DNA from: an uncultured Hyphomicrobiales bacterium
GTDB lineage: Bacteria; Pseudomonadota; Alphaproteobacteria; Rhizobiales; Beijerinckiaceae
DNA length: 47,341 nucleotides
NCBI GenBank assembly: GCA_903930675.1
Contig: CAIYZJ010000130.1
Location: forward strand, 1-47,341
Reading direction: 5' to 3'
Shown: positions 8,682 to 40,467 of the stretch, in pieces
How the letters are laid out: each line of letters starts with the position of its first letter
Position numbering within the stretch: the stretch's first letter is position 1
Position numbers and translations under genes: made by a program
The notes under the pieces: model-generated
The model's input: the letters and a program-made list of their open reading frames with translations, nothing else
Told to the model about the DNA's origin: nothing
The model's database searches: none

Positions 8682-9359
8682 TCAAGCGTCGATACTGACC
8701 GACTGCAGGGCCGATTTTGTCAGGCTTTTAATATGGGTACGCACGGCTTTGCAGGCCGCTTTGGCATCATCATTTTCCAGGGCATCGATTATATTCAGAT
8801 GCTCGTTTGAATCGGGCTCGACACGATCGGGCAGTTGCGCGATTTCAAACAAACGCGTGGCCATCCGCAGCCGGTGGATGAATTTGATCATCACCTCGTT
8901 GCCGCACGCATCGATATAGAGCCCGTGCACATTGTCGTCTGAGCGCCAATGCGCTTCGGTGTGGTATGAAACGGCCGAACGCAATTCTTTGACCTCGCGC
9001 TTGGCCTGAATGATTTTAACCGGAGGAATACGGCCAATCGCCAGCATCACAGCTTCGGCTTCCAGAATCTCCCGGACTTTGAGGCTTTGCAGATATTCGC
9101 CCAGATCCACATGCCGGACAATGAAAGAGCGGCCAGCCCCTTTGATAACCAGACCTTCACCTTCCAGTCGCTGGAGTGCTTCCCGCAAAGGGGTACGGGA
9201 AATACCCAGCATATCAGCCAAGCGCGACTCGACAATCAACGCCCCCCCTTTGAGACGACGCTGCTGGATCATCTCGGAAACCGAGGCATAGGCCTGATTG
9301 GACAGATTGAGTTGTTCTGTTGTGTTGTTCATCATAATCATCTTCAAGTGGCAGGCCAT
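8682..9359 (-). CDS. GntR-family regulator, FCD subfamily
   Basis: A 225-residue regulator. The N-terminal winged helix-turn-helix includes ADMLGISRTPLREALQRL, and the C-terminal all-helical FCD ligand domain has metal-type ligands (His residues near residues 130-145 and in NEHLNIIDAL). It is convergent with the importer, ending 3 nt past the ATPase stop. Such proteins usually repress catabolic genes until bound by a carboxylate or amino acid. The TTTGTATACAAA palindrome at 5637 is a good candidate operator. The start may be at 9359 or at one of the ATGs 18-27 nt further in, which have GAAG just upstream. Confidence 0.85.
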   Translation of the reverse strand: MACHLKMIMMNNTTEQLNLSNQAYASVSEMIQQRRLKGGALIVESRLADMLGISRTPLREALQRLEGEGLVIKGAGRSFIVRHVDLGEYLQSLKVREILEAEAVMLAIGRIPPVKIIQAKREVKELRSAVSYHTEAHWRSDDNVHGLYIDACGNEVMIKFIHRLRMATRLFEIAQLPDRVEPDSNEHLNIIDALENDDAKAACKAVRTHIKSLTKSALQSVSIDA

Positions 9360-9979
9360 AGGCGACCGCAGGCATCACCCAGAAATCCTAATCCTTCCGC
9401 TTGTCCCTGTCGCATCTCTAACAGCTTTTGTTTGATCCGAAACCATTTGGCACTTCAATGTCAACATTGCGCAGTTGCCTGCCCCTGAAAAATGACCCGG
9501 GACCCAACTTCCTGCAGAGAGTGGCAAAGACCGGGGTAATCTTGTGGTACTCCGCGACTTCAGGCCAGCCGGAGCCGGATTTTTCCTGGGTTAAGGCTCG
9601 GGCCGGCCTGTGTACCGATGAGCCGTTCACGAACCAAATCTGGGCCTTTTTGCCGGTGGCACGATGTGGCCGGATCCCGTTGTCGTCTCACTGCCAATCC
9701 TCCATTGATATCCGTGCATCGTCAAGGCTGTTGGATCAATAGGCTGCATTGTTTGCGGAATTACACATTGTGGGCACTGTCCGTGGATTACGACCCTTGG
9801 TTCAATTGGGTCACTTGGGTCAATTGGCCAATTCTGGTTTGCTTTGAAAAATGATTGTTGATGCCAGCCCGTTATTCGGGGACTGTTTTTGGATTTCACC
9901 TTTTACAACTCGGTTCAGCGTGAAAAACCAGCCGTCAGGGCTTAACATTGGCTTCGGTAACCTTCCGTTTTCCAGCCTG
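9360..9979. other. Non-coding gap, no gene recognised
   Basis: About 620 bases in which short open frames exist on both strands but none shows a recognisable domain, a good ribosome site or coding character. It holds a run of related short motifs at 9810-9833 (TTGGTTCAATTGGGTC, CTTGGGTCAATTGG), ending in the perfect palindrome AATTGGCCAATT (9822-9833), and the inverted repeat GCCTGT-caa-ACAGGC at 9975-9989 over the stop of the next gene. It could be decayed sequence. Confidence 0.5.
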
Positions 9980-10543
9980 TCAAACAGGCCGGTTTGTATG
10001 TCTTGATCCCCCAAAAAGGCCTATCCCTGCCAGAATGAGCGATGCTAAGCCAATGGCGATGAGAACCGGGTTCGGAACGTAAAATGTCGTGTAAACCTCC
10101 CAGCCTATTGCACGCAAAACTTGCGATACCTCCGTATATACGCCGATAAGGTGACCGCCGAGCGTCCCGGTAATACCCAGAAGGCATCCGCCGAGCAATG
10201 CAAGGCCAGCGGATACCCAGCGCATCATGCCCTGCCAGATCGCTGCCCCACGCTTCCAGCGCAGGACAAGCAGGAGTGCCCAATAGGCCGTTGTCCAGGT
10301 TGCAAGCATCACATGGTTGCGTCCAAGTGGCGAGGTGGTGATCGTCTCGATTGGCCAGACAGAAAGCCCGACGCCGTAGGCGGCGAGACCGAAAACGAGA
10401 CCAGCTGAAAGCAAAGGGACCAATGCGCGGTCTATGCTCAGCGCCAGCGGCCCGTCGGACATTGAGCGATAGAGAATAGCCAGTGTAGCAGTCATCCACA
10501 GCGCGATTGGAAAATGAACCAGTACAACATGATAGCCAGCCAT
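9980..10543 (-). CDS. Five-segment inner-membrane protein, DUF2231-like
   Basis: A 187-residue integral membrane protein with about five hydrophobic segments: VVLVHFPIALWMTATLAILY, LVPLLSAGLVFGLAAYGVGL, the segment after NHVMLATW, VSAGLALLGGCLLG and VLIAIGLASLILAGIGLF. The HFPIAL motif near the N-terminus and further histidines (NHVML, GGHLIG) are the pattern of DUF2231-like proteins, and some could bind heme; that is inference. The frame is open upstream, but the ATG at 10543 has GGAG upstream and lies right after the stop of the heme-protein gene. The two are clearly one operon, so it may be the membrane electron partner of that protein. Confidence 0.75.
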   Translation of the reverse strand: MAGYHVVLVHFPIALWMTATLAILYRSMSDGPLALSIDRALVPLLSAGLVFGLAAYGVGLSVWPIETITTSPLGRNHVMLATWTTAYWALLLVLRWKRGAAIWQGMMRWVSAGLALLGGCLLGITGTLGGHLIGVYTEVSQVLRAIGWEVYTTFYVPNPVLIAIGLASLILAGIGLFGGSRHTNRPV

Positions 10544-10545
10544 GA

Positions 10546-11967
10546 TTATTGCTCCAACTTGAATGTGGACGTCAGCAGTGCCCAACCAAAGGCCCCAATC
10601 AGGGCGAGACCTGCCAGTAATGTTAATAGCCACTGAACGCGGATTAATTCGGCGAATTCAGCCTCTATACCATAATGCGCGAGTTGTTCTTCGCTATGGC
10701 GTGAGCGTACGGGGATACCTTTTGCAATGCTTTCGGCTCCACCGTGTTTGACGCTGTTGAGGTGCGGCCAGCTCACTTGGCCGGGATAGAACAGGGTCAC
10801 GGACCGCGGGGGTTGCTTCCAATCCGGCATTTCGCCGGTAAAAGCGACTACCGCCAACTCTGCCTCGCGGCCAAAGCCTGCAGAAATCGGGAGTGAAACA
10901 TAATGCCAGCGTCCCGCGGTCGCCTGACGATGAACAGCGAAGGCAACCTGATAGACGCCGCCGTCCCGAATGATCTTATCCTCCAGTGGCTTTCCGGTGT
11001 CCATTTTGCGGCGGAGCGTAACCTCCCAGAATCCGTCAGCCCAATGCGCCTTGCCGGCAACGGCTATGTCAGCGCGCGAGTCCTGGGGTGTCCGCAAAAG
11101 ACGGCGCGGGATCGTGTCGCCTTCTTGCCAGCCCGCTGCTGGGTCAAACGCTACAGATTGATCCTCCGTGAGGGCATGTGCACCGTCCTGGTCAATTTTT
11201 CCACCGACAATATCATTCCATTTAAGGGCCCTCATACCGGTTTTCGAGGGATCAAACATCAGGCGCGGCTGCTTCTTATCGCTGTCCCAGTTGGTTGCAT
11301 AAGCGCCCCGACCCGTGTCACTCAGACGTCCGGCCGTTATGAACTGGTCATCGGCAAAGCCGGTCGGGTTAGAGCGCGCTGCCCGCCAATGCCAGAGGTC
11401 AAGGAAATATCCGGCCGCCTGAAGTCTGTCTTGCTCCTTCTCGGGTACGGTTGATGTCCAGTCGTTTTGGTTTTTGCGGGTTGCCGGGAGATATTTTGTG
11501 GGTTCCTCGAGTCCAAGCTTCTTTCCAAGATAGGGGTGGTCTTTAACCGATTTGATATCTGCCTCGACGGTAAAGCCTGCGAGCCTGTCACCGATTGCGA
11601 TATAGCCACCGTAGCGACCGAACTCCGGCACCGAGCCGTCATCAAGCATCATCGAGACACGATCCTCGTGGAGGCCATCCGGCTGCGAGCCCGGAACAGG
11701 ATTGCCCCTTACCACCCATTTGCCATCGGTGAAACGAAGCATGTCGTGAAATATGCCGGGATTTGGCGCAGGCCAGCGGTAACGGAAATAAACATCTGTA
11801 CCGTTATATGCCGCCTGGACTTGAAGCGGCATTGTCAGCAACTTCGGGATGCTGATTTGCCGCTTGGCATCATCGACCACGACACCGGTTCCGTGCGTTA
11901 TCCACGACAAGGCGAGCGCACCAGCAAACAAGACCACAGAGGATATAAGACCTAATTTCTTTTCCAT
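10546..11967 (-). CDS. Ethylbenzene-dehydrogenase gamma-subunit-like heme-binding protein
   Basis: A 473-residue protein anchored by an N-terminal hydrophobic segment (LISSVVLFAGALALSW) and a C-terminal one (LLTLLAGLALIGAFGWALL), with a large soluble, presumably periplasmic, part between. The beta-rich body with YNGTDVYFRYRW, GYIAIGDRL and FWEVTLRRKM resembles the heme-b domain of ethylbenzene/DMS/selenate dehydrogenase gamma subunits and related cytochromes. No molybdoenzyme or iron-sulphur subunit is nearby, so it is not part of a standard complex here. The frame extends to 12003, but the ATG at 11967 begins right at the signal-like segment. A perfect FNR-type box lies ~72 nt upstream, suggesting expression under low oxygen. 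Confidence 0.72.
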   Translation of the reverse strand: MEKKLGLISSVVLFAGALALSWITHGTGVVVDDAKRQISIPKLLTMPLQVQAAYNGTDVYFRYRWPAPNPGIFHDMLRFTDGKWVVRGNPVPGSQPDGLHEDRVSMMLDDGSVPEFGRYGGYIAIGDRLAGFTVEADIKSVKDHPYLGKKLGLEEPTKYLPATRKNQNDWTSTVPEKEQDRLQAAGYFLDLWHWRAARSNPTGFADDQFITAGRLSDTGRGAYATNWDSDKKQPRLMFDPSKTGMRALKWNDIVGGKIDQDGAHALTEDQSVAFDPAAGWQEGDTIPRRLLRTPQDSRADIAVAGKAHWADGFWEVTLRRKMDTGKPLEDKIIRDGGVYQVAFAVHRQATAGRWHYVSLPISAGFGREAELAVVAFTGEMPDWKQPPRSVTLFYPGQVSWPHLNSVKHGGAESIAKGIPVRSRHSEEQLAHYGIEAEFAELIRVQWLLTLLAGLALIGAFGWALLTSTFKLEQ

Positions 11968-12038
11968 TATCGCCCCGCTGTTGCCAGTAGCCAGAATAGG
12001 CACTGGTCATCAGCCTATGGCACGAACGGGACCAAGCA

Positions 12039-12052
12039 TTGATCCACATCAA
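12039..12052. promoter_or_regulatory. FNR/FixK-type box TTGATCCACATCAA
   Basis: TTGAT-CCAC-ATCAA matches the FNR/Anr/FixK consensus TTGAT-N4-ATCAA exactly. It ends 72 nt upstream of the start of the heme-protein gene, a usual position for an activator site. It implies that the heme protein and membrane protein are induced under oxygen limitation. Confidence 0.85.
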
Positions 12053-12576
12053 TGTTTATCTTCTAAATTTCTGATTGTTCAGCGTTATTCCGGATTTACG
12101 TAATGAACACACTGTGACCGTTGTCCGCGGACCAAGACCCTGGGTCTCATGGCAAATTGACCAACACAGAACCAAACCCGTCGCAGAACTAGGCCCGGGA
12201 CACCTTGATCGCAACCGAAAGATAACGATAGCTGCGATTTGATTGCCGGCATCAATACTTGCGATCGATAGGAGACGCATGTCACACTTTAAGGATCGCC
12301 ACGCTGACAATCATAAAAGGGGGGTATTCCAAATACCGGCCTTGCGGCACATTTCGCAGATTGGTGTGGCATCCCCGGCCTGCTTCAAAACAAAAGTTAT
12401 CTGCACTTTCTGAGCCTGGAAGCCCTCGCCTGAATACTTCTCTTTTCCAGCGGGATCATCAGCACAAAATTCCGGCTCCGAATGATATAATTTATGGAAG
12501 GACACCCCATTACAAATGTTAAAATAGACCAAGATAGAGTAAGTTCGTGTCTGGTTAAAACTGCCAAAGGGTTAGA
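12053..12576. other. Intergenic gap, no gene recognised
   Basis: About 520 bases upstream of the heme-protein gene and of the small basic protein. Only small open frames are present, without recognisable products. A short palindrome AGACCC-T-GGGTCT lies at 12136-12148. The promoter of the heme operon must lie near its left edge; I see no clear second promoter. Confidence 0.5.
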
Positions 12577-12777
12577 ATGATGACCAAGATGAGCAGAGAA
12601 GATCTGATGGCTGCTCTTAAAAATGCTCACTCCAAACAGGCTGAGCAGGCCAAGCCTTTGAAAAAAGCATCGATCAAACGGGCCCCGGTTGAAAAGCCTG
12701 TGAGCCTTGAGCGACTTGTCATTGCAATTGGCAAAGCTTACGAAAAACGTATGGGAAAGAAAAACACATCTCGTTAG
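12577..12777 (+). CDS. Small basic protein of unknown function
   Basis: A 66-residue protein rich in lysine and alanine (MSREDLMAALKNAHSKQAEQ at the N-terminus, ending KKNTSR). AAAGGG lies 6 nt before the ATG, and a second ATG follows directly. It has two likely short helices, around residues 5-22 and 42-60, separated by a Lys/Pro-rich linker, with no signal peptide or membrane segment. The composition suggests a nucleic-acid or acidic-protein partner, but I do not recognise the family. It stands alone between the heme operon and the flagellin gene. It could be spurious, though the ribosome site and composition favour a real gene. Confidence 0.5.
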   Translation: MMTKMSREDLMAALKNAHSKQAEQAKPLKKASIKRAPVEKPVSLERLVIAIGKAYEKRMGKKNTSR

Positions 12778-12924
12778 CCATCTCTTGTTTTCGGGTTGGT
12801 TTCGGATCCGTCTGGTATCGACTGGTTTCAGACCCGTCGGGAAGTGTCCATCTGCAGTAGTAGCCATTATAAAATACAGTGAGATCTGCCTTTAATCATT
12901 GGATCAGCCACATTGGGTAGTGTG

Positions 12925-12956
12925 TCCGTCATTCTTCGGACGGATGAATTTATTTT
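12925..12956 (+). terminator. Weak candidate terminator
   Basis: A 6-bp stem TCCGTC / GACGGA with an 8-base loop is followed by an AT-rich stretch, TGAATTTATTTTT. It lies downstream of the small basic protein gene and beyond the flagellin stop. The stem is short, so this is only a candidate. Confidence 0.3.
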
Positions 12957-13008
12957 TGAAATGGCAAAAAACTCTCAGCCGTTTTAATTATCCGGCGCTT
13001 CTATTCCC

Positions 13009-16000
13009 TTAGGGTTTAAGCAACTGAAGCACCAATTGGCTGCTCTGGTTGGCTTGGGCCAACATGGTCGTGGCAGCTTGCGAAATCATTTGGCTCCGCG
13101 TCAATTCTGTCGAGGACAGGCTATAATTGGTGTCTGTTATGCGGGCGAGTGATTGCTCCGCATTGGTTCCGTCGGCCCTCAGATTGCCAACGGCACTGAA
13201 TAATTTGTTTTGCATCGCACCAAGGTTTGATCGCAAGTCGGATATTTGCGAGAGAGCATTTTGAATCGAGGCGAGGGCGTCATTGGTGCCTTTTAAGGAT
13301 GAAATATCAAGATCCGCGATTTTGATACCGTCATCGGAGCCCCCATAGGTGTTTTCCTGCAAACCGAGGCGGTTCAAATCCCACAGAGCGGTCGACCGGC
13401 TGCCGCCAGACAGAGTAAAGCTCTTGTCCGAGTCCAGCAAAACGGTCGCATAGGTCGTAATGGCTGCCGCCGGGCCACCATTGATTTTCAATGCGGGATA
13501 TTGCTGGTTGGCTATGGCTGCCTTGGTGGGTCCCAGACCGAGATTTTGCAAAGTGAGTGTATTGGTCGCCGGATTGCTGCCGGTTGCCAGCGAGATGTTT
13601 CGTCCGTCGGCTGCAGTCAATGTCAATCCGCTGCCATTATCGGACGCAATAACGCCTGTCAGGCCCGACATTGTATTGATTGCAGCCGTGATATTGGAGA
13701 TTTTGGTCTGTCCCGTCCGGGTCATCGGCGCGACGGCATTATAAAAATGATTGGAATTGCCAAGTGACGGGCCCGCCGTGCTCGAGGTGAAGGTGACTGT
13801 CTGCCCCGATACCGCACTTGACGCGAAGCCGGTGAGTTGCCCCGACATGGTGCCTTTGGCTCCGGCATTCCCTGTCGTCCCGTCGGCAAGATTCGAAAAT
13901 GCTTGCGCGACTTCGGTGGCGGTCATGAAAGATACTGCGGTCAGTGTCATTGACGCCACAGTAACCCTGTCACCTGGTGCCAACTGGCCGAAGTCAATGC
14001 TGGCAATCTCGTTGACGCCGACAATGGCAGGCGTGGCCAACTCCCCCGGAATGATATTGGCTCCGGAAATATGTGTGTTCGAAGGACCCGCTACGGAATT
14101 CGTGAAAATTGTCAGGGGACCAAGCACACTCGTGCTCCATCCGGTCAGTGTGCCGGTGATGGTGGCATTTGTTGCGCTATTGGGGGAGGCTCCGTCATTG
14201 AGATTTGCAAATATGCCTTGCACTTCCGATGCCGTCATATCGGCATTCGCCGTGACAGTGATGCCTGCGATTGAAAGAGTGCCGCCGTTTGCCAGAGACG
14301 GCAAAATGATCGAATCCACTTCAGGGCTGGCAGCCGAAGCGGGTATCGGGACTTGTCCCGGAGTGACGATACTCAGTGTCGACTCCGTGCCCAATGTCGC
14401 AGGGTCAGGCGGAGAATCCAGGATGGGCTCGATGATAATCGGCTGACCGTTGATGTATAGTGTCCCGCTATTGGTGGAACTAAATGAAAAGCCTCCTCCG
14501 ATTATGACATTTGGCCGTGGTGTCGCGGTAACCCCGGTCTGCCCGGACACTTTGTTGATCGCCGCAGCAATGGCTATCGCGCTGGCTTCCTTTCGGGAGC
14601 TTGGCGTAATCGTATTGGACGCGACGTCGTCCGCTGCGCTGGATGCAGGAATTTGAACGCCATTGAGGGTCATATCGCCGAATTCCAGACCCTTTGATGC
14701 CATTGATTCCGTGTATGAAATTGTCAGATCCGGCATATCTGCATTGGCTGTCGAGCTTGTAAAAATGACGCTGTTGCCGGAGAGGGAGGTATTCCAACCG
14801 TTCAATGTGCCGGAGACATAACCTTTATTTCCTGTGACATTGAGAGCGCTTCCGCCAACGCCGTCCCGCAGGTTCTGGAATACGGCTTTGACTTCGGCAG
14901 CCGTCATGGCCTGTGTGGCTGTCAAAGTCAGCCCGCCGACCGACACGAATGATCCCGACACCAGATTGCCGAATTGAACAGTATTGGTTTCGGTGTTGCT
15001 GCTGCCGAGACGCCCCTGCGTCACTTGCGAAATCACACTGGCTGTTCCACCTGTTCCGGCGGTACGGGTTACCGCCAGACTGGCAACAGGCCCCGATACC
15101 GTGCTGGTAAACTGCACGGCAGAACCAGACGCAGCCGAAGTGGACCAGCCCGTCAGAGTTCCGGTAAACGATCCTTTTCCGTTTGCCACCACCAAAGCGC
15201 CCGCATTTGTGCCATCTGCAATTTGGCCGAAAGCGGCTGCAACCTCTGATGCAAGCATGCTGACATTGGCTGTCAGGGTTAATCCGCCAATACTGACCCG
15301 GTCGCCTTGTGATATGTTGCCGAAGTTGATCTGATCCACTTCAGTGCTGGCAGGCGCAGTAACCGTCGGAGATGATCCAGCCTGCTGGCCCTGCACAATA
15401 TAAAAGGGGGATGTGGCGAGTGTCGGCGAACCCAAAAGGGATCCCACATTGGTGTTTTTGATGAATGGCACGGCCCCGTTGGAATTGTTGCCTGTGATCC
15501 ACCCCCCGAGATTGGCCTGTTTTTCGAACAGATGGCCGATCGCCGATCCGGTCATCGGGCCTGTGACAGCAATACCCAGCAGATTAAAAGACTTTCCGCT
15601 CGCCAGATCGTTGAACCGCACGGTATCGATTTCAGGTTGTCCGGGACTTGCCGTTGTCGCGGCCTGCCCGGGGGTGATGATGCTTTTGATGGGATCAGCG
15701 GCATAAAAGCTGTTGCTGACCTGCAGATCCGCAACATTGGTGTCGGGTGTCACGCTTGTCAATTTGACGGTATTTCCTCCGGCCGGACCGGAGTTCCAAC
15801 TGCCCAGCGCGCCGCTGAAAACGCCTTTTCCCCCTGCAACAACAATGGCAGCACCGGCGGTGCCGCTTTGAATATTCTGGAAAGCTGCCGCTACTTCAGA
15901 ACTGCTCATGGGAGAGGTGGAAGTCAGGACAAGTCCGCCGACTGTCACCGAATCTCCTCCGGCCAACTGACCGAAAGCGACCGTGGCGTTTTCTGTGGCA

Positions 16001-17295
16001 CTTGGAACGTCGCCACCTTGCAAGGTGGAAAGAAGAGGCGGGATATTTTGATCCGCAACGACGGACTGTCGTGCAGATGAATTGACATAGGATCTATTCG
16101 GCTCATAGACCCCGACAGCCAGGCCGCTATTGGGAATATCGGTCGCATGGTCTGTTGAAATGACAATGGGTTCGTCGTCGATTGATTGAAGCGAATATGT
16201 ACCGGTGAATATGCCTACATTTCCGATCGTCGCACCGGCTGCATAACTCACGGCGTTTAAGCCCAGATATCCTGCATTGAAATCAGAGCTTGTGGTCAGC
16301 GAGGTCGTATAGGTTGTTATATTTCTGCCATCCCCGGCGATGAGTTGAACCCCTGCTTTGCTGTTGTTCGTATCAACGGCGCGAACACCCGTTCTTGGAG
16401 TCAGCGCATTGATTGCCTGGACAACTTGCGCTCTGTCGAGATTTGTATTGCCTTTCAGGGTGATCGTTGATGTGGACACGCCGTTGATTGTGACTGTGCC
16501 GCTTTTGCCGGCTATTCCGGTCGACATTGGAACGCCCGAGGCCAGTGTCGGTCCGGTTCTTGCCGTTACACCTGTGAGAGATGATTGCCGGTTGATCGAT
16601 GCAACCTTGGCTATGGCCGAGGAAGCCCTGTCGCTTGCGGAGGTCGTATCATCCTCCGGCAGCGAGGACCCGATCGCGATACCGTTGATGACGAGTTCAC
16701 CGCCGGACAAGCCCTTATTCAATGAGCCCGCGGGGACAGCCAGAGACCCAAATCCTTGCGCCATCATTGCCGACCTGTGTCCCAATCCCAATGTGCGTGT
16801 ATTCATGAACGGGAGTTTAAGGGCGACAGATGCGCCACTCGCGGCATTGGTTTGCAATGAAAGCTTGCTGGAAACGCCACCGAACACACGGATACCATTG
16901 AAATTTGTTGTGGCACTTACCGTGTCGATTTGGTTGACCAGTTGCGTCACTTCGATTTGCAATTTGGATCTGTCCCCGTCCGACAGAGTGCCTGTCGCGG
17001 CTTGCAATGCCAGTTCATTTATACGCTGGAGACTATTCGAAACAGAGGCCAGTGCGGAATCTGCAATTTGGGTGAGAGAGATGCCGTCATTGACGTTTCT
17101 GATGGCAACAGCCATTCCTCTCACCGAGGAATTCATTTTTGTTGAAATGGCCAATCCGGCTGCATCATCGCGGGCACTGTTAATGCGCAAGCCCATTGAC
17201 AATTGTTGAACCGCTCTGTTCTGCCCGACCTGATTGCCGGTCAAACTCGCATTTGCAACCAACGCATTGTTGTTAGTGTTAATTCCAACCATCAT
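13009..17295 (-). CDS. Giant flagellin with repeat-bearing central region
   Basis: A 1428-residue flagellin. Normal alphaproteobacterial flagellins have about 300-500 residues. Residues 1-~140 form the conserved N-terminal D0/D1 region (QQLSMGLRINSARDDAAGLA, then LQRINELALQAATGTLSDGD). The last ~90 residues form the C-terminal D1/D0 helix (SDLRSNLGAMQNKLFSAVGN, then STELTRSQMISQAATTMLAQ). Between lie Flagellin_IN-like segments (e.g. AINTMSGLTGV, LTAADGRNIS) and about six related ~100-residue units (residues ~430-1195) with GGLTLTA, SEVAAAF and GTLTGWSTS motifs. These would project from the filament as an enlarged outer domain. The frame is open 89 codons upstream, but that stretch is AT-rich and unlike flagellin; the tandem ATGs at 17295/17292 give the family's normal start. 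No flagellar assembly gene is adjacent. Confidence 0.9.
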   Translation of the reverse strand: MMVGINTNNNALVANASLTGNQVGQNRAVQQLSMGLRINSARDDAAGLAISTKMNSSVRGMAVAIRNVNDGISLTQIADSALASVSNSLQRINELALQAATGTLSDGDRSKLQIEVTQLVNQIDTVSATTNFNGIRVFGGVSSKLSLQTNAASGASVALKLPFMNTRTLGLGHRSAMMAQGFGSLAVPAGSLNKGLSGGELVINGIAIGSSLPEDDTTSASDRASSAIAKVASINRQSSLTGVTARTGPTLASGVPMSTGIAGKSGTVTINGVSTSTITLKGNTNLDRAQVVQAINALTPRTGVRAVDTNNSKAGVQLIAGDGRNITTYTTSLTTSSDFNAGYLGLNAVSYAAGATIGNVGIFTGTYSLQSIDDEPIVISTDHATDIPNSGLAVGVYEPNRSYVNSSARQSVVADQNIPPLLSTLQGGDVPSATENATVAFGQLAGGDSVTVGGLVLTSTSPMSSSEVAAAFQNIQSGTAGAAIVVAGGKGVFSGALGSWNSGPAGGNTVKLTSVTPDTNVADLQVSNSFYAADPIKSIITPGQAATTASPGQPEIDTVRFNDLASGKSFNLLGIAVTGPMTGSAIGHLFEKQANLGGWITGNNSNGAVPFIKNTNVGSLLGSPTLATSPFYIVQGQQAGSSPTVTAPASTEVDQINFGNISQGDRVSIGGLTLTANVSMLASEVAAAFGQIADGTNAGALVVANGKGSFTGTLTGWSTSAASGSAVQFTSTVSGPVASLAVTRTAGTGGTASVISQVTQGRLGSSNTETNTVQFGNLVSGSFVSVGGLTLTATQAMTAAEVKAVFQNLRDGVGGSALNVTGNKGYVSGTLNGWNTSLSGNSVIFTSSTANADMPDLTISYTESMASKGLEFGDMTLNGVQIPASSAADDVASNTITPSSRKEASAIAIAAAINKVSGQTGVTATPRPNVIIGGGFSFSSTNSGTLYINGQPIIIEPILDSPPDPATLGTESTLSIVTPGQVPIPASAASPEVDSIILPSLANGGTLSIAGITVTANADMTASEVQGIFANLNDGASPNSATNATITGTLTGWSTSVLGPLTIFTNSVAGPSNTHISGANIIPGELATPAIVGVNEIASIDFGQLAPGDRVTVASMTLTAVSFMTATEVAQAFSNLADGTTGNAGAKGTMSGQLTGFASSAVSGQTVTFTSSTAGPSLGNSNHFYNAVAPMTRTGQTKISNITAAINTMSGLTGVIASDNGSGLTLTAADGRNISLATGSNPATNTLTLQNLGLGPTKAAIANQQYPALKINGGPAAAITTYATVLLDSDKSFTLSGGSRSTALWDLNRLGLQENTYGGSDDGIKIADLDISSLKGTNDALASIQNALSQISDLRSNLGAMQNKLFSAVGNLRADGTNAEQSLARITDTNYSLSSTELTRSQMISQAATTMLAQANQSSQLVLQLLKP
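13710..16010 (-). repeat. Tandem protein-domain repeats inside the giant flagellin
   Basis: Six related units, read in coding direction, start near 16005, 15640, 15350, 15000, 14330 and 14020. Each opens with an acidic/hydrophobic stretch such as TEVDQINFGN or NEIASIDFGQ. The complete ones then have GGLTLTA, SEVAAAF, a DG turn and GTLTGW, ending FTSSTAG-like. The second unit is degenerate after its first third, and a Flagellin_IN-like segment interrupts the array between units four and five. Divergence between units shows the array is old. Confidence 0.8.
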
Positions 17296-17646
17296 TCGAA
17301 TTCCAAAGTATTCTAACTCTGAAATTGATTCGCATGAATCGTGCCAACTTTGAGATTTTATTAATCGTTTGTTTTTATTGGTTTTTTTATCGTTAACCAA
17401 TTTGCACGGGATCCATCCGCATGTCTTCACGCATATAAACGGCATGGAATTCCGTGCCATTTTATGTTCAATGCCATTGATCCGTCGATGATTTTTCGTA
17501 ATTGATAACAATAGAGGAAGGCTGTATTGCGCTTGACGCCAACCAGTCCGGCTGCTGTTCATACGGGAACCCCCGCCCTAACCTGTGCGGCTCAACAGAT
17601 GTGAATACTTGTCGGAATTCTGCTTTTTCTGCTCTTTTGTCAGCCC
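17296..17646. other. Upstream region of the giant flagellin gene
   Basis: About 350 bases with A/T-rich tracts (17345-17400) that should hold the flagellin promoter and leader. A TGGCACG appears on the minus strand near 17450, but no GC element follows at sigma-54 spacing. No convincing sigma-28 promoter was found. No other gene is seen. Confidence 0.5.
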
Positions 17647-18970: not shown

Positions 18971-18987
18971 CGCATGCCAAACATGCG
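18971..18987. promoter_or_regulatory. Inverted repeat CGCATG-N5-CATGCG, candidate operator
   Basis: A perfect inverted repeat (CGCATG ccaaa CATGCG) lies in the divergent region between the Kelch gene and the short-chain dehydrogenase gene. It has the size of a dimeric repressor site. No regulator is encoded beside it, so assignment is open. Confidence 0.35.
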
Positions 18988-19077
18988 ATGTGGGCAATAA
19001 CTGTGCTTGACAAGGTATTTTCTTCACTTGATGGTTATGCATAATATATTTTACAAAATGAAAAAAGGGTGGGTTCA

Positions 19078-19872
19078 ATGCGACTGCAAGGGCAAACTGC
19101 GATCATCACGGGAAGTGGCCGGGGCATCGGGCAGGATATTGCTCTCGCTTTTGCCAAAGAGGGCGCGAATGTCGTGGTGTCCGACATTGATCCTGTGACC
19201 ACCCTGCACAGTGCCGAGCTGGTGGCCCGTTCGGGCCATGCCACGGGTTGCCAAGCGGATGTGACACAACGCAAGGATGTCGAGCATCTGGTACAGCACG
19301 CACTCGATACCTATGGGCGCGTTGATATTCTGGTCAACAATGCCATGCGGATCGTGCCGGGCCGGCTCGAGGAACTGAGCGACGAGGCATGGGATGCGAC
19401 CATCAATATCGGGTTGAAAGGCTCATTCCTGATGAGCCAGACGGTCGGCAAGCACATGATCGCGCAAAAGAGCGGTTGCATCATCAATGTTGCATCGATT
19501 GCCGGTCTTTCGCCTTACAATTTTGCCGGATCATACAGCAGCGTCAAAGCCGGCATCATCATGTTTACCAAGCAGATAGCGCTTGAATGGGGTCAATACG
19601 GCATTCGCTGCAATGCGATCGCGCCCGGATTTATCCATACGCCGGGCACCGAAGGCATGTATTCCAATGCCGAGATTAAAAAGGGCCGTGAGGCCTTCAC
19701 ACCCCTTGGACGGATCGGAACGGGCGATGATGTTGCCCGCATTGCCGTATTTCTGGCGTCCGAGGAAGCAAGCTACACCACGGGCAGTGTCATCGAAACC
19801 GATGGCGGCCAGAATGTAGGATTGTACATGGCTGTTCCGGGACGGAGTTTCTCGGGTGGCGCGTTGAAATAA
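19078..19872 (+). CDS. Short-chain dehydrogenase/reductase (classical SDR)
   Basis: A 264-residue NAD(P)-dependent oxidoreductase. It has the Rossmann motif TGSGRGIG near residue 12, NNA in ILVNNAM, catalytic Ser in NVASIAG, and Tyr/Lys in SYSSVKAG. The acidic end of strand beta-2 (VSDID) favours NAD. The ATG at 19078 follows GGGTGGG. It lies 66 nt upstream of a sugar-binding-protein gene with no obvious terminator, so it probably oxidises a sugar, sugar acid or polyol brought in by that importer. The exact substrate is not readable. Confidence 0.88.
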   Translation: MRLQGQTAIITGSGRGIGQDIALAFAKEGANVVVSDIDPVTTLHSAELVARSGHATGCQADVTQRKDVEHLVQHALDTYGRVDILVNNAMRIVPGRLEELSDEAWDATINIGLKGSFLMSQTVGKHMIAQKSGCIINVASIAGLSPYNFAGSYSSVKAGIIMFTKQIALEWGQYGIRCNAIAPGFIHTPGTEGMYSNAEIKKGREAFTPLGRIGTGDDVARIAVFLASEEASYTTGSVIETDGGQNVGLYMAVPGRSFSGGALK

Positions 19873-19938
19873 TCTACCGCATTTCACTGTTCTTATGCCG
19901 TCGATCACATCAATAAAAGACAAACATAGGGAGGGAAT

Positions 19939-20940
19939 ATGACACATCATTGGTTCCGCAATGTTGCTCTTGCAGGTCTTGGTTTGGTTCTGGCCAATAC
20001 TGCTGTTCAATCCGAGGACAAGATCAAACCGCAACCGAAACCCGATAAAAGCTATACTATCGGCGTCCTCGAACCCAATCTGGCCATTCCGCATTTTGTC
20101 GCCCAAGCCTATGGTTTCACCGATGAAGCGCAGAAGATGGGCATGAAGGTGATCATGTACGATGCGGGCGAACACAAAAATGTCGCCAAGCAGGTCTCGC
20201 AAATGGAAGACCTGATCACCAACAAAGTCGATGTGATTGCATTTGTTCCGGGCACAAGCGTGACCGCGATGGCGCAGATCGATCAGGCATTGGCGGCCGG
20301 TATTCCGGTGGTCAATGTCAATATCATGTCCGATCACACCAAGGTTTTGGGCCGCGTCCGCTCTGACGATTACGAGACCGGCAAGATGCAGGGCGAGTTC
20401 ATCGTGTCTGCCCTTAAAGGCAAGGGCAATGTCGTGATGATGAGCGGCGTTTCGGGCAACAGCGCGTTCATCAACCGTGCCAAAGGCTTTCAGGATGTGA
20501 TTGCGAAATATCCCGAGATCAAATTGCTCTCCGAGCAGTGGACACCGAATGCCACCGATCGCGGTCTGAAATTGATGGAAGATTGGACACAGGCCTTTCC
20601 GAAAATCGATGCGGTCTTTACCGGCGCCGACCGTCTTGCCATTGGTGCCGCACAGGCTTTGCGTTCACAGGGCAAAAACCCCGGCAATGTCATCATCACA
20701 ACTGTTGATTACAATGACGATACCGAACGCTTTGTGCGCGAGGGCTGGATTTCTGCAACCATGGCGCAATCTCCCGTCACCATGGGACGTTGGGGCGTGC
20801 GCATTGCCTTGATGGCTTTGACCAAACAACCGATCCCGGACGAGGTTTTAACCCCGTCCATCAGCATCACCAAGGATAATGCCGATACCGTCGATATTTC
20901 GGCGATCCGTCAGCCCAAGGGTTGGAAGCCACCGATCTAA
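19939..20940 (+). CDS. Sugar ABC transporter substrate-binding protein (RbsB/FrcB-like)
   Basis: A 333-residue periplasmic binding protein of the LacI/ribose-binding fold. The signal peptide covers residues 1-~24 (VALAGLGLVLANTAVQS). Typical elements follow: IGVLEPNLAIPHFVAQAYGF, DLITNKVDVIAFVPG, AAGIPVVNVN, VVMMSGVSGNSA and AVFTGADRLAIGAAQAL. A strong GGGAGGG precedes the ATG. The gene order binding protein-permease-single-domain ATPase is that of rhizobial FrcBCA (fructose/mannose/ribose), so a monosaccharide or polyol ligand is likely. Confidence 0.88.
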   Translation: MTHHWFRNVALAGLGLVLANTAVQSEDKIKPQPKPDKSYTIGVLEPNLAIPHFVAQAYGFTDEAQKMGMKVIMYDAGEHKNVAKQVSQMEDLITNKVDVIAFVPGTSVTAMAQIDQALAAGIPVVNVNIMSDHTKVLGRVRSDDYETGKMQGEFIVSALKGKGNVVMMSGVSGNSAFINRAKGFQDVIAKYPEIKLLSEQWTPNATDRGLKLMEDWTQAFPKIDAVFTGADRLAIGAAQALRSQGKNPGNVIITTVDYNDDTERFVREGWISATMAQSPVTMGRWGVRIALMALTKQPIPDEVLTPSISITKDNADTVDISAIRQPKGWKPPI

Positions 20941-21004
20941 CCCCCAAATGATCAGCCCGAACGGTTAGCCACGATCAGCATCATTCAGCATTGGATAGTC
21001 ATTG

Positions 21005-21985
21005 ATGAGCCAACAAACAGATACAGCTCCAGATGCATCCCGAACCGGAATTGCGGGCAGATTCCGGTTCGATATGAATGGCCTTGGCATGGTGTTCATC
21101 ATCATTGCCCTGTGCATTGTCTTTTCGTGGCTGAACCCGAATTTCTACAGCGGCACAAACCTCAGAAATGTGGCCCGACAGACCGCAATTCTGGGGATTG
21201 TGGCCTGCGGGCAAACCATCGTGATCCTGTCGGGCGGGTTTGATCTGTCCGCCGGTATGGTGATCGGTCTCATCAGCGTGTCGAGTTCGCTGATCATGAT
21301 TGATCACGGACTTGTCATCGGCTGCCTTTCTGCCGTCGGGATCGGTTTGGCCATCGGGGCGTTCAACGGCATCATGATTGCCAAGGCGGGACTGCCGGCT
21401 TTCATTGCAACGCTGGCAATGTATTCCGCCGCACGCGGGCTCGCTCTGATTATCTCCGGCGGTTTGCCGATCACCGATATGCCGTTCGAATTCGGCTGGA
21501 TCGGGGCGGGCCAAATCCTGACCCTGCCTGTACCGGCCCTGATCTCGCTGCTGGTGTTTTTGGTGTGTGCGTTCCTGATGGTCAAAACAAGGTTCGGGCG
21601 CCACGTTTATGCCATTGGCGGCAATCAGGATTCGGCGCTGTTTTCGGGCATCAATGTCGATCGCGTCAAAATTCTCGTCTGGTCCCTGCATGGCGGTCTT
21701 GTCGGCCTTGCCGCCCTAGTTCTGACTTCGCGCGCTGTTTCGGCCCACGCCACTCTGGGTGAAGGTATGGAGCTGGAATCAATCGCGGCAACCGTGATCG
21801 GGGGCACCGCACTGGGCCGCGGTCGGGGCAGTATTCTCAACACTTTTCTCGGTGTTGTCGTGATGGCCATTCTGACCAACGGCCTCAACCTGATCAACGT
21901 ATCCTCGTATTATCAAATGGTGGCGATCGGGATCATTATTGCAACCGCCGTTTATGTCGATCAATTCAAACGCGTGAAATCATGA
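21005..21985 (+). CDS. Sugar ABC transporter permease (RbsC/FrcC-like)
   Basis: A 326-residue inner-membrane permease with about nine or ten hydrophobic segments, the first being MVFIIIALCIVFSWL. Signature elements of the ribose-type permease family include GQTIVILSGGFDLSAG, GIMIAKAGLPAFIATLA and the conserved EAA-like region GELESIAATVIGGTAL (read here as MELESIAATVIGGTAL). A TTG just before the ATG is also in frame; the ATG at 21005 is chosen. It forms the channel for the binding protein encoded upstream and the ATPase downstream. Confidence 0.9.
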   Translation: MSQQTDTAPDASRTGIAGRFRFDMNGLGMVFIIIALCIVFSWLNPNFYSGTNLRNVARQTAILGIVACGQTIVILSGGFDLSAGMVIGLISVSSSLIMIDHGLVIGCLSAVGIGLAIGAFNGIMIAKAGLPAFIATLAMYSAARGLALIISGGLPITDMPFEFGWIGAGQILTLPVPALISLLVFLVCAFLMVKTRFGRHVYAIGGNQDSALFSGINVDRVKILVWSLHGGLVGLAALVLTSRAVSAHATLGEGMELESIAATVIGGTALGRGRGSILNTFLGVVVMAILTNGLNLINVSSYYQMVAIGIIIATAVYVDQFKRVKS

Positions 21986-21995
21986 GGGTATGACG

Positions 21996-22781
21996 ATGTC
22001 CGAACACCCCCTGATTGAGCTGATTGATATTCATAAAGCCTTTGGTCCGGTACAGGCATTATCGGGCGCGAACCTGTCGATCATGCCCGGCGAAGTCGTT
22101 GGTTTGGTCGGTGACAACGCCGCCGGAAAATCAACCTTCATGAAGGTTTTGACCGGTGTACATCAACCCGACAGCGGTGAGATCAAGGTCAACGGCGAGC
22201 GGGTCACATTCCGTGACCCCGGAGAATCACGCCGCGCGGGCATTGAAATGATCTATCAAAATCTGGCTCTCGCCCCCAATCTGGATGTGGTCGCCAATGT
22301 CTTTTTGGGTCGTGAACTGCTGCGCAATCCACTGTCGGTGCCATTCCTGTCGGTGCTTGATGAAAACCTGATGGAGCAGCGGACTATCGAGCTGCTGCAA
22401 CGGCTCAAGATCAATGTAAAATCGGTCCGATTGCTTGTTGAAAAAATGTCCGGCGGCCAACAACAAGCCGTGGCCATTGCGCGCTCGGTGGCGTTCGAAG
22501 CCAAACTTGTGATTATGGACGAGCCGACAGCGGCATTGGCCGTCAAAGAAGTCGGAAAGGTGCTCGATATCATCAACAATCTTCGGGCCGATGGTGTCTC
22601 GGTGATCATCATCAGCCATCGCCTTCAGGATGTTTTCAACGTGGCCGACCGGATCATCGTACTTCAAACCGGAAAAACCATCGCCGCCCGCCAGACCAAA
22701 GAAACCACCATGGATGAAATCGTAAAATTCATTGTGGGCGGAGTGCAGCCGGAACTGAGCACAATCGCAAGCGGGCGTTGA
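21996..22781 (+). CDS. Sugar ABC transporter ATP-binding protein, single domain (FrcA-like)
   Basis: A 261-residue ATPase with Walker A GDNAAGKST, Q-loop IYQNLAL, signature MSGGQQQ, Walker B LVIMDEPTAAL and H-loop IIISHR. Ribose-type importers usually have a double ATPase of ~500 residues; the single-domain form is the FrcA type. Two ATGs are possible; the one at 21996 has GAGGG at 7-nt spacing, whereas the one at 21990 is too close to it. It completes the importer that starts at 19939. The next gene is convergent, ending 18 nt away. Confidence 0.88.
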   Translation: MSEHPLIELIDIHKAFGPVQALSGANLSIMPGEVVGLVGDNAAGKSTFMKVLTGVHQPDSGEIKVNGERVTFRDPGESRRAGIEMIYQNLALAPNLDVVANVFLGRELLRNPLSVPFLSVLDENLMEQRTIELLQRLKINVKSVRLLVEKMSGGQQQAVAIARSVAFEAKLVIMDEPTAALAVKEVGKVLDIINNLRADGVSVIIISHRLQDVFNVADRIIVLQTGKTIAARQTKETTMDEIVKFIVGGVQPELSTIASGR

Positions 22782-22799
22782 GGACAACTGGTCGGACGG

Positions 22800-26203: not shown

Positions 26204-27385
26204 TCATGCTTCCGACAAGTCCTCGTGAAAATGCCGCGACATCAGCATTCCGTGGAAAAGGGCCGCACGGGGGGCGAGAGTGGAGACAAGAATGTGCTCG
26301 TCGATCGCGTGCGCCCCGCCGCCGTTGCAGCCAAGCCCGTCAATGACCGGGCGGCCGAGCGCCGCCGAGAAATTTCCGTCAGAGACGCCGCCTCGGCTTG
26401 TTTCCGCCATCGGCAGACCGAGCTCGAGAGCAAGATGTTTTGTCGCCTCGTACATTCGCGCGACTGCCGGACTCCGCTCGAAGGGCGGACGATTGATGCC
26501 GCCTTCGACCTCGATGCGGACATCGGGATTGTAGGACGTGCGGGCAAGCATCGCCGCCGTCAGGCGCTCGGCCGTGGCCATGTCATCGGCGCGCATGTCT
26601 ATCTCGATCACCGCTTCAGCGGGCACCACGTTGGGACGTGTGCCGCCATGGACAGTGCCGACATTGAATGTGGCGTGGGTCTCGGTCGCCGTCATGGCTT
26701 CAATGTCGATGATATGTCGTGCCACTTCTAGAATGGCGCTGCGTCCATCGAACAGGTTGCCACCGGCATGTGCCGAGCGTCCGTGTGCGCGCAGCACGAA
26801 GCGGCCCCAGCCCTTGCGTTTTGTTACGACAGTTCCGGGCGCTTCGAAGGCTGGCTCGGGCACCATCACGAAGGCGGCGTTGCGCGATAGTTCCTCGATC
26901 ACCCCGCGCGATGTATAGCTGCCTATCTCCTCGTCGGAGTTGAGATAGACGACAATCGGGCGTGGAGGCAGCAGGCCGGCTGCGGCGATGCGGTGCAGCG
27001 CGTCTACCGCAAGCCAGGAACCCGCCTTCATATCGAAAATGCCCGGCCCGTAAACGCGGTCCCCCTCGCGGCGTACAGGTCGGCGCGCCAGTGTTCCTGC
27101 CTCCCACACCGTATCGACATGCCCCATGATGAGGGCAGGCTCGCCATTGAGACCGCCAGGGGCATAGGTGAGCACGAGTTGGCCACCGCAACCGTCACGC
27201 CCGGGAATGCGGCGTATCGAAACGGGAAGATCTCCGAATTGCGCCTCGACCCTGTCGAGCAGACGGTCGATCAGGTCGGGCCTTTCGGAAGGGGTCTCGA
27301 GTTCGACCCATTCGACTACGCCGGCCAGTAATTCTTCGGCGTCGAAATCCTGTGCACCCAGAAGCTGCTCACCCTTCGCGCGCAT
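26204..27385 (-). CDS. M20-family metallopeptidase (carboxypeptidase G2/ArgE-like)
   Basis: A protein of about 393 residues with the di-zinc M20 fold: GHVDTVWE (first zinc His and Asp), DMKAG (bridging Asp), SDEEIGS (catalytic Glu pair), VPEPAFE and a C-terminal GGGAHAIDEH. A lid/dimerisation domain sits between residues ~190 and 300 (HGRSAHAGGN). It lacks a signal peptide. Members remove N-acyl or N-carbamoyl groups or cleave C-terminal residues. As the last gene of the deacetylase-acylase-HyuAB run, it probably hydrolyses an N-carbamoyl or N-acyl amino acid from ring opening. AAGGAGG precedes tandem ATGs at 27388/27385; the second has the better spacing. The start overlaps the end of hyuB. 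Confidence 0.87.
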   Translation of the reverse strand: MRAKGEQLLGAQDFDAEELLAGVVEWVELETPSERPDLIDRLLDRVEAQFGDLPVSIRRIPGRDGCGGQLVLTYAPGGLNGEPALIMGHVDTVWEAGTLARRPVRREGDRVYGPGIFDMKAGSWLAVDALHRIAAAGLLPPRPIVVYLNSDEEIGSYTSRGVIEELSRNAAFVMVPEPAFEAPGTVVTKRKGWGRFVLRAHGRSAHAGGNLFDGRSAILEVARHIIDIEAMTATETHATFNVGTVHGGTRPNVVPAEAVIEIDMRADDMATAERLTAAMLARTSYNPDVRIEVEGGINRPPFERSPAVARMYEATKHLALELGLPMAETSRGGVSDGNFSAALGRPVIDGLGCNGGGAHAIDEHILVSTLAPRAALFHGMLMSRHFHEDLSEA

Positions 27386-29093
27386 CATTTCCTCCTTCAA
27401 ATCGATCCATGCTTGCGGCCGCTTCAGCCGAAAACCCGTAATGGCGCGCGGCGAAGGCTGCGGAGATCACTTCGTCTGCGAGATCTTGGCCCACGGCTTT
27501 ACGGTCGCGCAGTATCGGATCGCCCCATCCGCCGCCGCCCGGCAGACGAATTTCAACGAGATCACCGGCTTGCAGCTCGAACGTGCTGGTGGCGCCAAGC
27601 TCGATCGTTTCGCCGTTGCGTTCGACTGTAAGGCTCGCACATGTCCCGTCCATTCCCTTCTCACGACCTTTCGGGGGCAAGCGGAAGCGGTCGGAATAGA
27701 GGCTGAGTACAACACCATCGCGAAGGATGCGGTATTTCCTGAACATCCCTAGCCCGCCGTTGAACTCGCCGGCACCCCAGGAATCGGCAATGAGCCCGAA
27801 GCCTTCAATGCGGACATGCGGGCTCAATTGCTCGATCGCCTCGGACGGCGTGAGGCGACAAGAGGACAGGACATGGTCCGTGCAGTGAATGGCATCATAA
27901 TCCCTTGCCCCGCCCCATCCCCCGCCCAGAACGTCCATGTGGATGGCGACGCCACCTTCCGGGCGCGGCCAGCTCATGAACAGTCCTGTGGTTGAATTGG
28001 AGCCCTGCGCTGGCACGCGACCGGGGATCAGTTTGCCCATTGCATCATGCACGGCGTCCAGTGCCCTGCAGGATGCTGTCGCCCGTGCTCGTACGGGCGC
28101 ACCATCGCGCGGATTAAGGATCGAGCCTTTCGGCGCGACGATCCGCAGCGGACGGTTGCATCCGTCATTGGCCGGAATTTCGATGTCATCGAGGATGCTG
28201 CGGATCGCGGTAACAGCGCCTGCGATCGTGCTGGCGATAGGCGAGTTGAACATTGTCCGCACCTGCGGATCGGTACCCGTAAAATCGATTGTCGCCTCGC
28301 TGCCGGAAATGGTCACGGCGGCAACGATGCGGATCGGCTGGCTGTTCGCGTCCCAGCCATCGCCGTCCATCCAGGCTTCCCCGGTCCATGTTCCGTCAGG
28401 CAGGGCCGCAATCGCCGCGCGCATACGCCGCTCGCTGTAATCCAGTACCTCCGCCATGGCAGTCAGTACCGCATCGGCACCGAAGCGATCCGCCATCTCG
28501 CGAATGCGCCTCGCGCCGATATGGTTCGAGGCGAACTGGGCATCGATATCGCCGCGGCCGATCTGCGGGGTGCGTATATTGGCGAAGATAAGCCGCTCGA
28601 ACATGCCGCCGTGCCAATCCCGCTCCACGTCGAGCAGAAGCGGCGGGATGATCAGCCCTTCCTGGATCAGCTCTGTCGCGCGAGTGTTCACGCCGGCAGA
28701 GCCGCCGCCAATATCGAGATGATGCGCTGTACTGCCGGCCCAACCGAGCAGACGACCGCTATGGAAGATCGGGCTGAACAGGATGATGTCATTGAGATGC
28801 TGCCCGCCGCTATAGGGATCGTTCATAATAATAGCACTGCCCGGACCCACGCCTGACAGATCGAGCTGTTGGGCGGCGGCGCTGAAGGAGCAACTCAGCG
28901 CAGCCGTCTGCATAGGGATCATATCGGCCTGCGCGACAACCTGCCCACTCGGGTCAAGCAGGGCGGTCGAACAGTCCCGCGCCTCGCGCACGACAGCGGA
29001 AAAGGCGGAGCGGATCAGGTTCGCCGCCATTTCATCGGCGGCCGCCTGAAGCGCACGCGTGAGAATCGTGATGCGGATACGGTCAGCCATCAT
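27369..29093 (-). CDS. hyuB: Hydantoinase/oxoprolinase subunit B
   Basis: A 574-residue HyuB-family protein. Conserved elements include SAVVREARDCSTALLDPSG, NDPYSGGQHLNDI, AGSTAHHLDIGG and a C-terminal LPGGGGWGDP. HyuB pairs with HyuA to open lactam or imide rings such as hydantoins and 5-oxoproline with ATP. The frame is open 17 codons upstream, but the ATG at 29093 overlaps the HyuA stop (ATGA), the usual coupling for this pair. It is ~100 residues shorter than acetone-carboxylase-type relatives and normal for the hydantoinase branch. The ring substrate is unknown; a cyclic imide or hydantoin is suggested by the neighbours. Confidence 0.9.
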   Translation of the reverse strand: MMADRIRITILTRALQAAADEMAANLIRSAFSAVVREARDCSTALLDPSGQVVAQADMIPMQTAALSCSFSAAAQQLDLSGVGPGSAIIMNDPYSGGQHLNDIILFSPIFHSGRLLGWAGSTAHHLDIGGGSAGVNTRATELIQEGLIIPPLLLDVERDWHGGMFERLIFANIRTPQIGRGDIDAQFASNHIGARRIREMADRFGADAVLTAMAEVLDYSERRMRAAIAALPDGTWTGEAWMDGDGWDANSQPIRIVAAVTISGSEATIDFTGTDPQVRTMFNSPIASTIAGAVTAIRSILDDIEIPANDGCNRPLRIVAPKGSILNPRDGAPVRARATASCRALDAVHDAMGKLIPGRVPAQGSNSTTGLFMSWPRPEGGVAIHMDVLGGGWGGARDYDAIHCTDHVLSSCRLTPSEAIEQLSPHVRIEGFGLIADSWGAGEFNGGLGMFRKYRILRDGVVLSLYSDRFRLPPKGREKGMDGTCASLTVERNGETIELGATSTFELQAGDLVEIRLPGGGGWGDPILRDRKAVGQDLADEVISAAFAARHYGFSAEAAASMDRFEGGNDAREG

Positions 29094-33468: not shown

Positions 33469-33523
33469 GTGCAAAATCCCGGCTAACGCGACCCGGACGA
33501 CAAGCGTCCGGACGCGCCGCTTT

Positions 33524-39147: not shown

Positions 39148-39167
39148 GGCTTGCCGATCAGGAAAAT

Positions 39168-39193: not shown

Positions 39194-39216
39194 CATCTTT
39201 CGGGATTTGGTGAAGA

Positions 39217-40449: not shown

Positions 40450-40467
40450 CTTGCTTCCTCCTCGCGG

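Follow-up and report, generated by a model that had tools for sequence, protein, structure and literature searches.

The DNA analysed here, hereafter the window, is a stretch of 47,341 nucleotides from an uncultured Hyphomicrobiales bacterium of the family Beijerinckiaceae (assembly GCA_903930675.1, contig CAIYZJ010000130.1), and the gene under study encodes an unusually long flagellin. An initial annotation, made from the sequence alone, had placed a flagellin of 1428 residues at positions 13009-17295; these coordinates were exact, and the gene was located on the minus strand, which had not been given. Judged from its sequence, the product is a genuine giant flagellin, about three times the usual flagellin size. 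The genome is denoted G000, and its four genus-mates G001 to G004.

The giant flagellin and its domain architecture

The gene starts with an ATG at 17295 and stops at 13009, and a second in-frame ATG follows immediately, at 17292. Upstream of the first ATG the frame remains open to 17562 (1517 aa), the flagellin-like start being at 17295/17292. The reading frame was unbroken over 4.3 kb. The gene, the site preceding it and the parts of the protein, including copies of a repeated domain termed R, are as follows.

17332-17346, minus strand: sigma-54-type promoter-like site TGGCACGATTCATGC, 36 bases upstream of the giant flagellin ATG
13009-17295, minus strand: giant flagellin gene, 1428 codons plus stop (1427 if read from the second ATG at 17292)
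16756-17295, minus strand: N-terminal D0/D1 region, residues 1-180 (Flagellin_N at 5-141; Pfam)
15994-16755, minus strand: module A, residues 181-434, with Flagellin_IN at 267-314 (module alignment and Pfam)
15694-15993, minus strand: R1, residues 435-534 (R profile)
15409-15633, minus strand: degenerate R copy, residues 555-629 (R profile, weak)
15046-15342, minus strand: R3, residues 652-750 (R profile; folded alone)
14695-14991, minus strand: R4, residues 769-867 (R profile)
14323-14694, minus strand: module B, first half, residues 868-991, with Flagellin_IN at 899-941 (alignment and Pfam)
14023-14322, minus strand: R5, residues 992-1091, inside module B (R profile)
13699-14010, minus strand: R6, residues 1096-1199, inside module B (R profile)
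13276-13698, minus strand: module B, second half, residues 1200-1340 (clear only if joined to the first half)
13018-13272, minus strand: C-terminal D1/D0 region (Flagellin_C at 1342-1426; Pfam)

Both flagellin ends, described as intact in the initial annotation, exceeded the Pfam cut-offs, with 118.5 bits for Flagellin_N at residues 5-141 (cut-off 26.6) and 56.1 bits for Flagellin_C at residues 1342-1426 (cut-off 23). Between them lie 1200 residues, in agreement with the centre of about 1200 residues proposed earlier. When the whole protein was scanned, Flagellin_IN reached 24.5 bits (cut-off 22.7). The protein falls outside the FlgL group: all 12 FlgL rows occupied one side of a branch with support of 100/99, and the FlgL model yielded 76.5 bits, under its cut-off of 127.2. 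Among the flagellins themselves it was found on a long branch with no firm placement, and the NCBIfam flagellin cut-offs, belonging to models of 282-576 positions, were not reached (best 256.4 of 531). None of the 1428 residues is a cysteine, and the hook protein FlgE of the same genome is likewise free of cysteine; this argument is weak, as two neighbouring metabolic proteins (333 and 485 aa) are also cysteine-free.

Comparison within the insert indicated that a module of about 250 residues with Flagellin_IN motifs is duplicated there, a feature overlooked by the initial annotation. With R5 and R6 omitted, the alignment of module A with module B scored 167, compared to a mean of 55 and a maximum of 90 among 500 shuffles. 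Taken alone, the first half of B yielded 123 (best shuffle 76) and the second half alone 81 (best shuffle 84, with 1 of 500 shuffles as high). The Flagellin_IN segments reported earlier were recovered when the pieces were scanned apart, at 23.4 bits in module A and 27.3 bits in the first half of B, both over 22.7 bits; the second half of B, scanned apart, had no Flagellin_IN match. R1 to R4 are located between the two modules, and R5 and R6 interrupt module B. Giant flagellins are recognised by a length above 1000 aa with conserved ends and by internal duplication of the insert, and here 1428 aa and the module duplication (167 against a best shuffle of 90) were found. The gene by itself is a further member of this published class.

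The repeat of about 100 residues noted initially was equally evident. Five full R copies scored 57-94 bits by leave-one-out profiles, compared to at most 11.9 bits in shuffles (500 for each), and the degenerate sixth copy at residues 555-629 scored 16.3 bits against 11.1. The R copies are 40-47% identical to R3. Structure prediction, one of the checks first suggested for the repeat run, yielded a compact domain (AlphaFold model from the five window copies, pLDDT 82.9, pTM 0.76). Matches of this fold to solved structures were weak, namely a cyanophage sheath protein (8kee, Z 6.1) and a Stenotrophomonas flagellin (9atl, Z 4.9), and Foldseek found no match in the PDB at E ≤ 0.001. The viral model A0A1P8VWA9 resembled the fold well (TM 0.84, E 1.5e-6). 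At the sequence level, the best E value in the PDB was 0.63, and tblastn of a single copy (R4) against phage and plasmid records found none. That R is a divergent Flagellin_IN had no sequence support, with an hhalign probability of 2.5% from thin profiles of only 5 and 3 sequences.

When a profile of the five flagellin copies alone was used, R was detected once in FlgK, the junction protein, of G004 (residues 595-678, E 1.2e-13) and twice in an unlinked protein of 1179 aa in G000, whose orthologs in G001, G002 and G003 also contain R. An 8-row profile added the FlgK of G114 (residues 818-901, E 1.9e-10) and single copies in proteins of G101, G617 (an RTX-repeat protein) and G728. Of the 12 giant FlgKs examined, 2 contained R. 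In the phylum sample 6 of 398 genomes, this one included, had a match, so the domain is rare there. The search for homologues with the same repeats, also suggested at the outset, thus revealed R in other proteins, FlgK of G004 and G114 among them. A domain common to junction and filament proteins would suggest an exchange of outer modules among axial proteins.

The 1179-aa protein (G000:C117, L027:882-4418, plus strand) carries two R domains and has no Pfam or NCBIfam match; it adjoins an SDR-like gene, no flagellar gene was recognised alongside, and the frames of its orthologs span about 1179-1209 residues.

The occurrence of R in a protein with no Pfam match and in the G617 protein with RTX calcium-binding repeats would fit a role outside the filament, in which the main task of the flagellin ends is to direct the export of a string of R domains that acts as a secreted, adhesin-like protein. 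Such a role appears improbable, as the D0/D1 ends are complete at both termini, R also occurs in two FlgKs, which are structural axial proteins, and the giant flagellin has no RTX repeats (HemolysinCabind unmatched up to E 1).

Giant hook and junction proteins

A giant FlgE of 1406 aa, counted from its ATG within a frame of 1409 codons, is encoded elsewhere in this genome (L081:5736-9953, plus strand, G000:C137). FlgE_D2, Flg_bbr_C and Flg_bb_rod all exceeded the Pfam cut-offs in this protein; it passed the FlgEFG subfamily model TIGR03506 and remained under the cut-off of the FlgE equivalogs (best 389 of 472). The other Flg_bbr_C proteins of the genome measured 138-279 aa. FlhA and Flg_bbr_C proteins were found in all five genomes of the genus, and FliS in G004. 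The FlgE frame of G004 reached 1419, and three of the four genus-mates had giant FlgK frames of 1538 (G002), 1538 (G003) and 1786 aa (G004), the last passing TIGR02492. FlgL of the same three genomes measured 303 aa. These frame lengths of FlgE and FlgK, and those of the family given next, run from stop to stop and may hold a few dozen residues before the start.

In the family as a whole, FlgK_D1 was matched in 98 of 129 genomes, 15 of them within genera g1, g5, g13, g45 and g46. Giant FlgK was observed in 13 of these 15, with frames of 959-1786 aa. Outside the five genera (n = 83), the 82 matches over the cut-off reached at most 682 aa, and the sub-cut-off match in G057 lies in a frame of 860. 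FlgE was matched in 85 of the 129 genomes; 12 belong to the five giant-FlgK genera, 9 of these with frames of 1134-1419, and the remaining 73 reached at most 758. In-frame lengths were checked for 8 complete FlgE (1134-1419) and 12 FlgK (1202-1786), and those of G099 FlgK (959), G072 FlgE (1166) and G087 FlgE (806) are minimum values, as the frames leave contig ends.

Exceptions within the five genera were also noted. G049 had only an ordinary FlgK (614) and FlgE (504), FlgE of G099 was in two pieces, and FlgK of G072 was represented by a piece of 252 aa. G087 (C38, C5), with FlgE frames of 806 and 452, carried a giant FlgK frame of 1349 together with an ordinary one of 607, and this FlgK pair suggests two flagellar systems. 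The family search found no FlgK in G086, G001 or G000. Among the published matches listed, no FlgE or FlgK of this size appeared, and since subscription literature was mostly not included, absence is not demonstrated. A giant hook protein here and giant junction proteins in relatives are the less expected part of the finding.

The upstream site, genomic setting and other flagellins

The site 36 bases upstream of the giant flagellin was identified with the pattern TGGCACGNNNNWTGC, which we take to be the sigma-54 consensus. It is the only exact match in the window (17346-17332), on the same strand as the gene. The chance expectation for the window was 0.21 on both strands, and at least one match occurred in 19 of 100 shuffles, so it is the position of the site that counts; with one mismatch allowed, 4 sites were found against 3.4 expected. 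Fifteen bases, TCAAAGTTGGCACGA, are common to this site and a site before a flgB-like gene of the same genome, that gene being named by position and resemblance and not by a family test. The motif was also present upstream of one flagellin each in G072 and G016. Exact matches occurred in 32 of 181 loci, and their context was considered for the flgB-like gene and the G072 and G016 flagellins.

The neighbours of the giant flagellin gene include a GntR/FCD regulator, an ethylbenzene dehydrogenase-like protein, a DUF2231-like protein (below cut-off), a Kelch protein and an SDR protein, as well as a sugar-type periplasmic binding protein and a transketolase-like enzyme, followed by hydantoinase, penicillin-amidase and branched-chain transporter genes. 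The M20 peptidase, hydantoinase B, hydantoinase A and penicillin amidase genes stand in a run at 26204-33474 on the minus strand, a possible operon for amide or hydantoin breakdown, and are accompanied by branched-chain amino-acid-type transporter genes at 36564-41247. At 12366-12494, a 131-base stretch, presumably a remnant of an IS3 OrfA transposase, is similar to sequence lying at the ends of contigs in G001 and G002. The open reading frame at 12397-12867 (minus strand) is probably spurious, having no Pfam match.

The flank at 18987-22783 showed 86% DNA identity to G001. On the flagellin side of the Kelch gene (window position about 17600), no DNA match to G001:C50, G002:C46 or G003:C67 was found; the genes on the far side of Kelch are unrelated to it in G001 and G002, and in G003 no flagellin was matched there. 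Because the neighbours are metabolic and the genus-mates differ beyond the Kelch gene, the giant flagellin gene is at a variable site apart from the flagellar cluster.

As the assembly consists of 304 contigs, and as the related flagellins of G103 and G115 leave contig ends and the gene type may therefore assemble badly, an assembly or binning artefact (collapsed repeats, or a chimeric contig in the metagenome) was considered. It is very improbable: the R copies are only 40-47% identical to R3, which makes repeat collapse unlikely, and the flank at 18987-22783 is matched in a genus-mate.

Within this assembly PF00669 was matched once, by the giant flagellin. Among the matches listed for genus-mates, PF00669 was found in FlgL alone in G002 and G004 and not in G001, PF00700 matched only FlgL, below its cut-off, and the giant protein used as query (P0002) found only FlgL or the R protein in the four genomes. 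FliD_N had no match in any of the five genomes of the genus, although the same model picks up FliD of G016. Sister genera have flagellins of 287-324 aa next to FliD, FlgL and FlgK. Since FlgK, FlgL and FliD are missing here and flagellins lie beside them in relatives, the description as the only flagellin holds for the assembly.

Across the order, P0002 was matched in 73 of 297 genomes, and after three long frames had been checked, the giant flagellin was found in this genome only. The three candidates, G188, G392 and G364 (listed frames 934, 1045 and 884), proved to have flagellin frames of 324, 414 and 302 aa. Long PF00669 frames among the matches listed for the family sample, correct from stop to stop, were those of G132 (1123), G109 (856), G024 (767), G122 (735), G017 (681) and G020 (616); the match begins 272-781 residues into these frames, so the proteins are ordinary or modest in size. 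In a scan of a contig collection, which uses short exact patterns and may omit this genome itself, the only P0002 relative was a locus in a Bdellovibrionota metagenome-assembled genome, with two ordinary flagellins and no giant one.

The nearest flagellins were those of G103 and G115, with 54% and 53% identity over the N-terminal 170-174 residues and lengths of at least 511 and at least 432 aa, both leaving contig ends; Flagellin_IN exceeded its cut-off in G103. Module A scored 105 (best shuffle 110) and 79 (88) against G103 and G115, respectively, R1-R4 scored 92 (113) and 100 (104), with 200 shuffles each, and the first half of B was borderline at 63 (59) and 63 (63). As no section of the variable part rose clearly above shuffles, only the N-terminal 170-174 residues and the IN motif of G103 are claimed as common.

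Proposed filament and comparison with known systems

The reading we prefer, with a probability of about 0.6, is that the giant protein works as a filament subunit and gives the filament a thick outer shell, in a flagellum whose hook, and in relatives the junction, is similarly enlarged. Given the oversized hook protein and the junction protein of relatives, the flagellum would be enlarged along its whole outside. The conserved D0/D1 ends of flagellins serve polymerisation. Expression of the giant flagellin would depend on sigma-54, like that of the other flagellar genes; its export would use the flagellar type III system, and its polymerisation would proceed through these ends. The 1200-residue centre would form an external shell, composed of the two duplicated IN-containing modules and a series of R domains, making the filament thicker than normal. 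According to the initial annotation, the enlarged surface could alter adhesion or immune recognition as well as thickness. According to the available part of the giant-flagellin paper, filaments of a 495-aa flagellin measure 24 nm and those of the 1020-aa and 1190-aa flagellins at least 30 nm; scaling of the cross-section area from these widths would give about 32-34 nm, a result of arithmetic and not of measurement (PMC6248924). Hook, junction and filament would have comparably thick outer layers, with diameters probably matched.

Several observations weigh against this reading. FlgK, FlgL and FliD are absent from the assembly, none of the four genus-mates has an ortholog of the giant flagellin, and the contigs of G002, G003 and G004 end on the FlgL side, where sister genera keep flagellins. 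The usual flagellin site thus looks unassembled in these genomes, and the giant protein may not be the sole flagellin. Giant FlgE and FlgK are paired with smaller flagellins in sister genera (287-324 aa; others 462-522 aa) and on an Octadecabacter plasmid described below, where the only flagellin annotated, in 97 kb of 118 kb, has 281 aa. The gene lies outside the flagellar cluster, amid metabolic genes and near the IS3-like remnant. R was missing in the remaining 10 giant FlgKs and in every FlgE examined, and the structure model of module A was unusable (pLDDT 31).

Part of this evidence would suit an accessory flagellin, with ordinary flagellins beside an unassembled fliD-flgL-flgK building the filament. 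The giant protein, gained at a variable site, would then be a minor subunit, one made only under certain conditions, or a silent one. The placement of the 287-324 aa flagellins in sister genera, the contig ends, the missing FlgK, FlgL and FliD, and the different gene content of G001, G002 and G003 at the Kelch gene are all in line with it. The giant gene nevertheless has its own sigma-54-type site, matching that before the flgB-like gene, and an intact 4.3-kb frame, and an accessory role is considered unlikely, though it is the most serious competitor to a functional filament subunit.

More tentatively, and with the odds somewhat against it, these genomes may hold a flagellar type of its own. 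The subunits of hook and junction, and in this species also those of the filament, would all have grown to about 1400 residues and would partly share one exchangeable outer domain, R, forming a continuous thick shell. Either the enlarged hook and junction would have come first, or they would travel as a set that can be transferred (one is on a plasmid); the giant flagellin would be a later addition.

Giant flagellins with thick filaments, invoked by the initial annotation, are indeed described from several phyla, with at least 30 nm in two marine species, in the available text of the same paper (PMC6248924). In that text, Bermanella marisrubri and Oleibacter marinus, with giant flagellins of 1020 aa and 1190 aa, have, as here, conserved ends and an insert formed by internal duplication followed by insertion. 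Theirs is the only flagellin in the genome, whereas here it is the only one in the assembly; the lineage differs, and the present protein exceeds both in length and contains five R domains, those proteins carrying DE repeats (PMC6248924). The paper treats the filament protein alone, its available text never mentioning FlgK and naming FlgE a single time, in the title of a supplement, whereas here neighbouring axial proteins are giant too (PMC6248924). Flagellinolysin (NF033876) is likewise a flagellin carrying a domain in its variable region; its model reached 20.7 bits on the giant flagellin (cut-off 205), over residues 112-152 only, and no HExxH was seen.

Compared to known axial proteins, the FlgE frames found here (1134-1419) exceed the 865 aa of Campylobacter jejuni FlgE, called "one of the longest" hook proteins, and the FlgK frames (1202-1786) exceed the 702 aa of Caulobacter FlgK, itself longer than earlier-described FlgKs, according to the parts of the sources available (PMC5069557, PMC5691160).

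The closest parallel was found on a plasmid. The tblastn search with FlgE yielded 210 plasmid records, none with 80% query coverage in one place, and the best was pOA238_118 of Octadecabacter arcticus 238 (NC_020909.1), covering 63% of FlgE. Its FlgE has 1410 aa, with identities of 52% and 47% to the FlgE of this genome at the ends, and its FlgK of 1436 aa is giant, as in three of the genus-mates (L183:833-5065 and 8904-13214; flagellin at L182:2723-3568). The plasmid also encodes FlgL (423), FliD (546), FliS, a FliA-type sigma factor and its own rpoN. Unlike the giant flagellin, its flagellin, FlgE and FlgK have no R domain, and R was not found in the plasmid stretches searched. A search with its FlgK yielded 38 plasmid records, and among the matches listed only its own covers 80%. 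The available parts of published accounts report that the strains are non-motile and that this flagellar cluster differs from most of those in Roseobacter and has counterparts in three further strains (PMC3646047), and that Rhodobacterales have three flagellar cluster types, two of them spread horizontally (PMC12363192). Since relatives combine giant FlgE and FlgK with flagellins of ordinary size, cultured strains such as Octadecabacter make it possible to test in which order the enlargements arose and whether diameters have to match.

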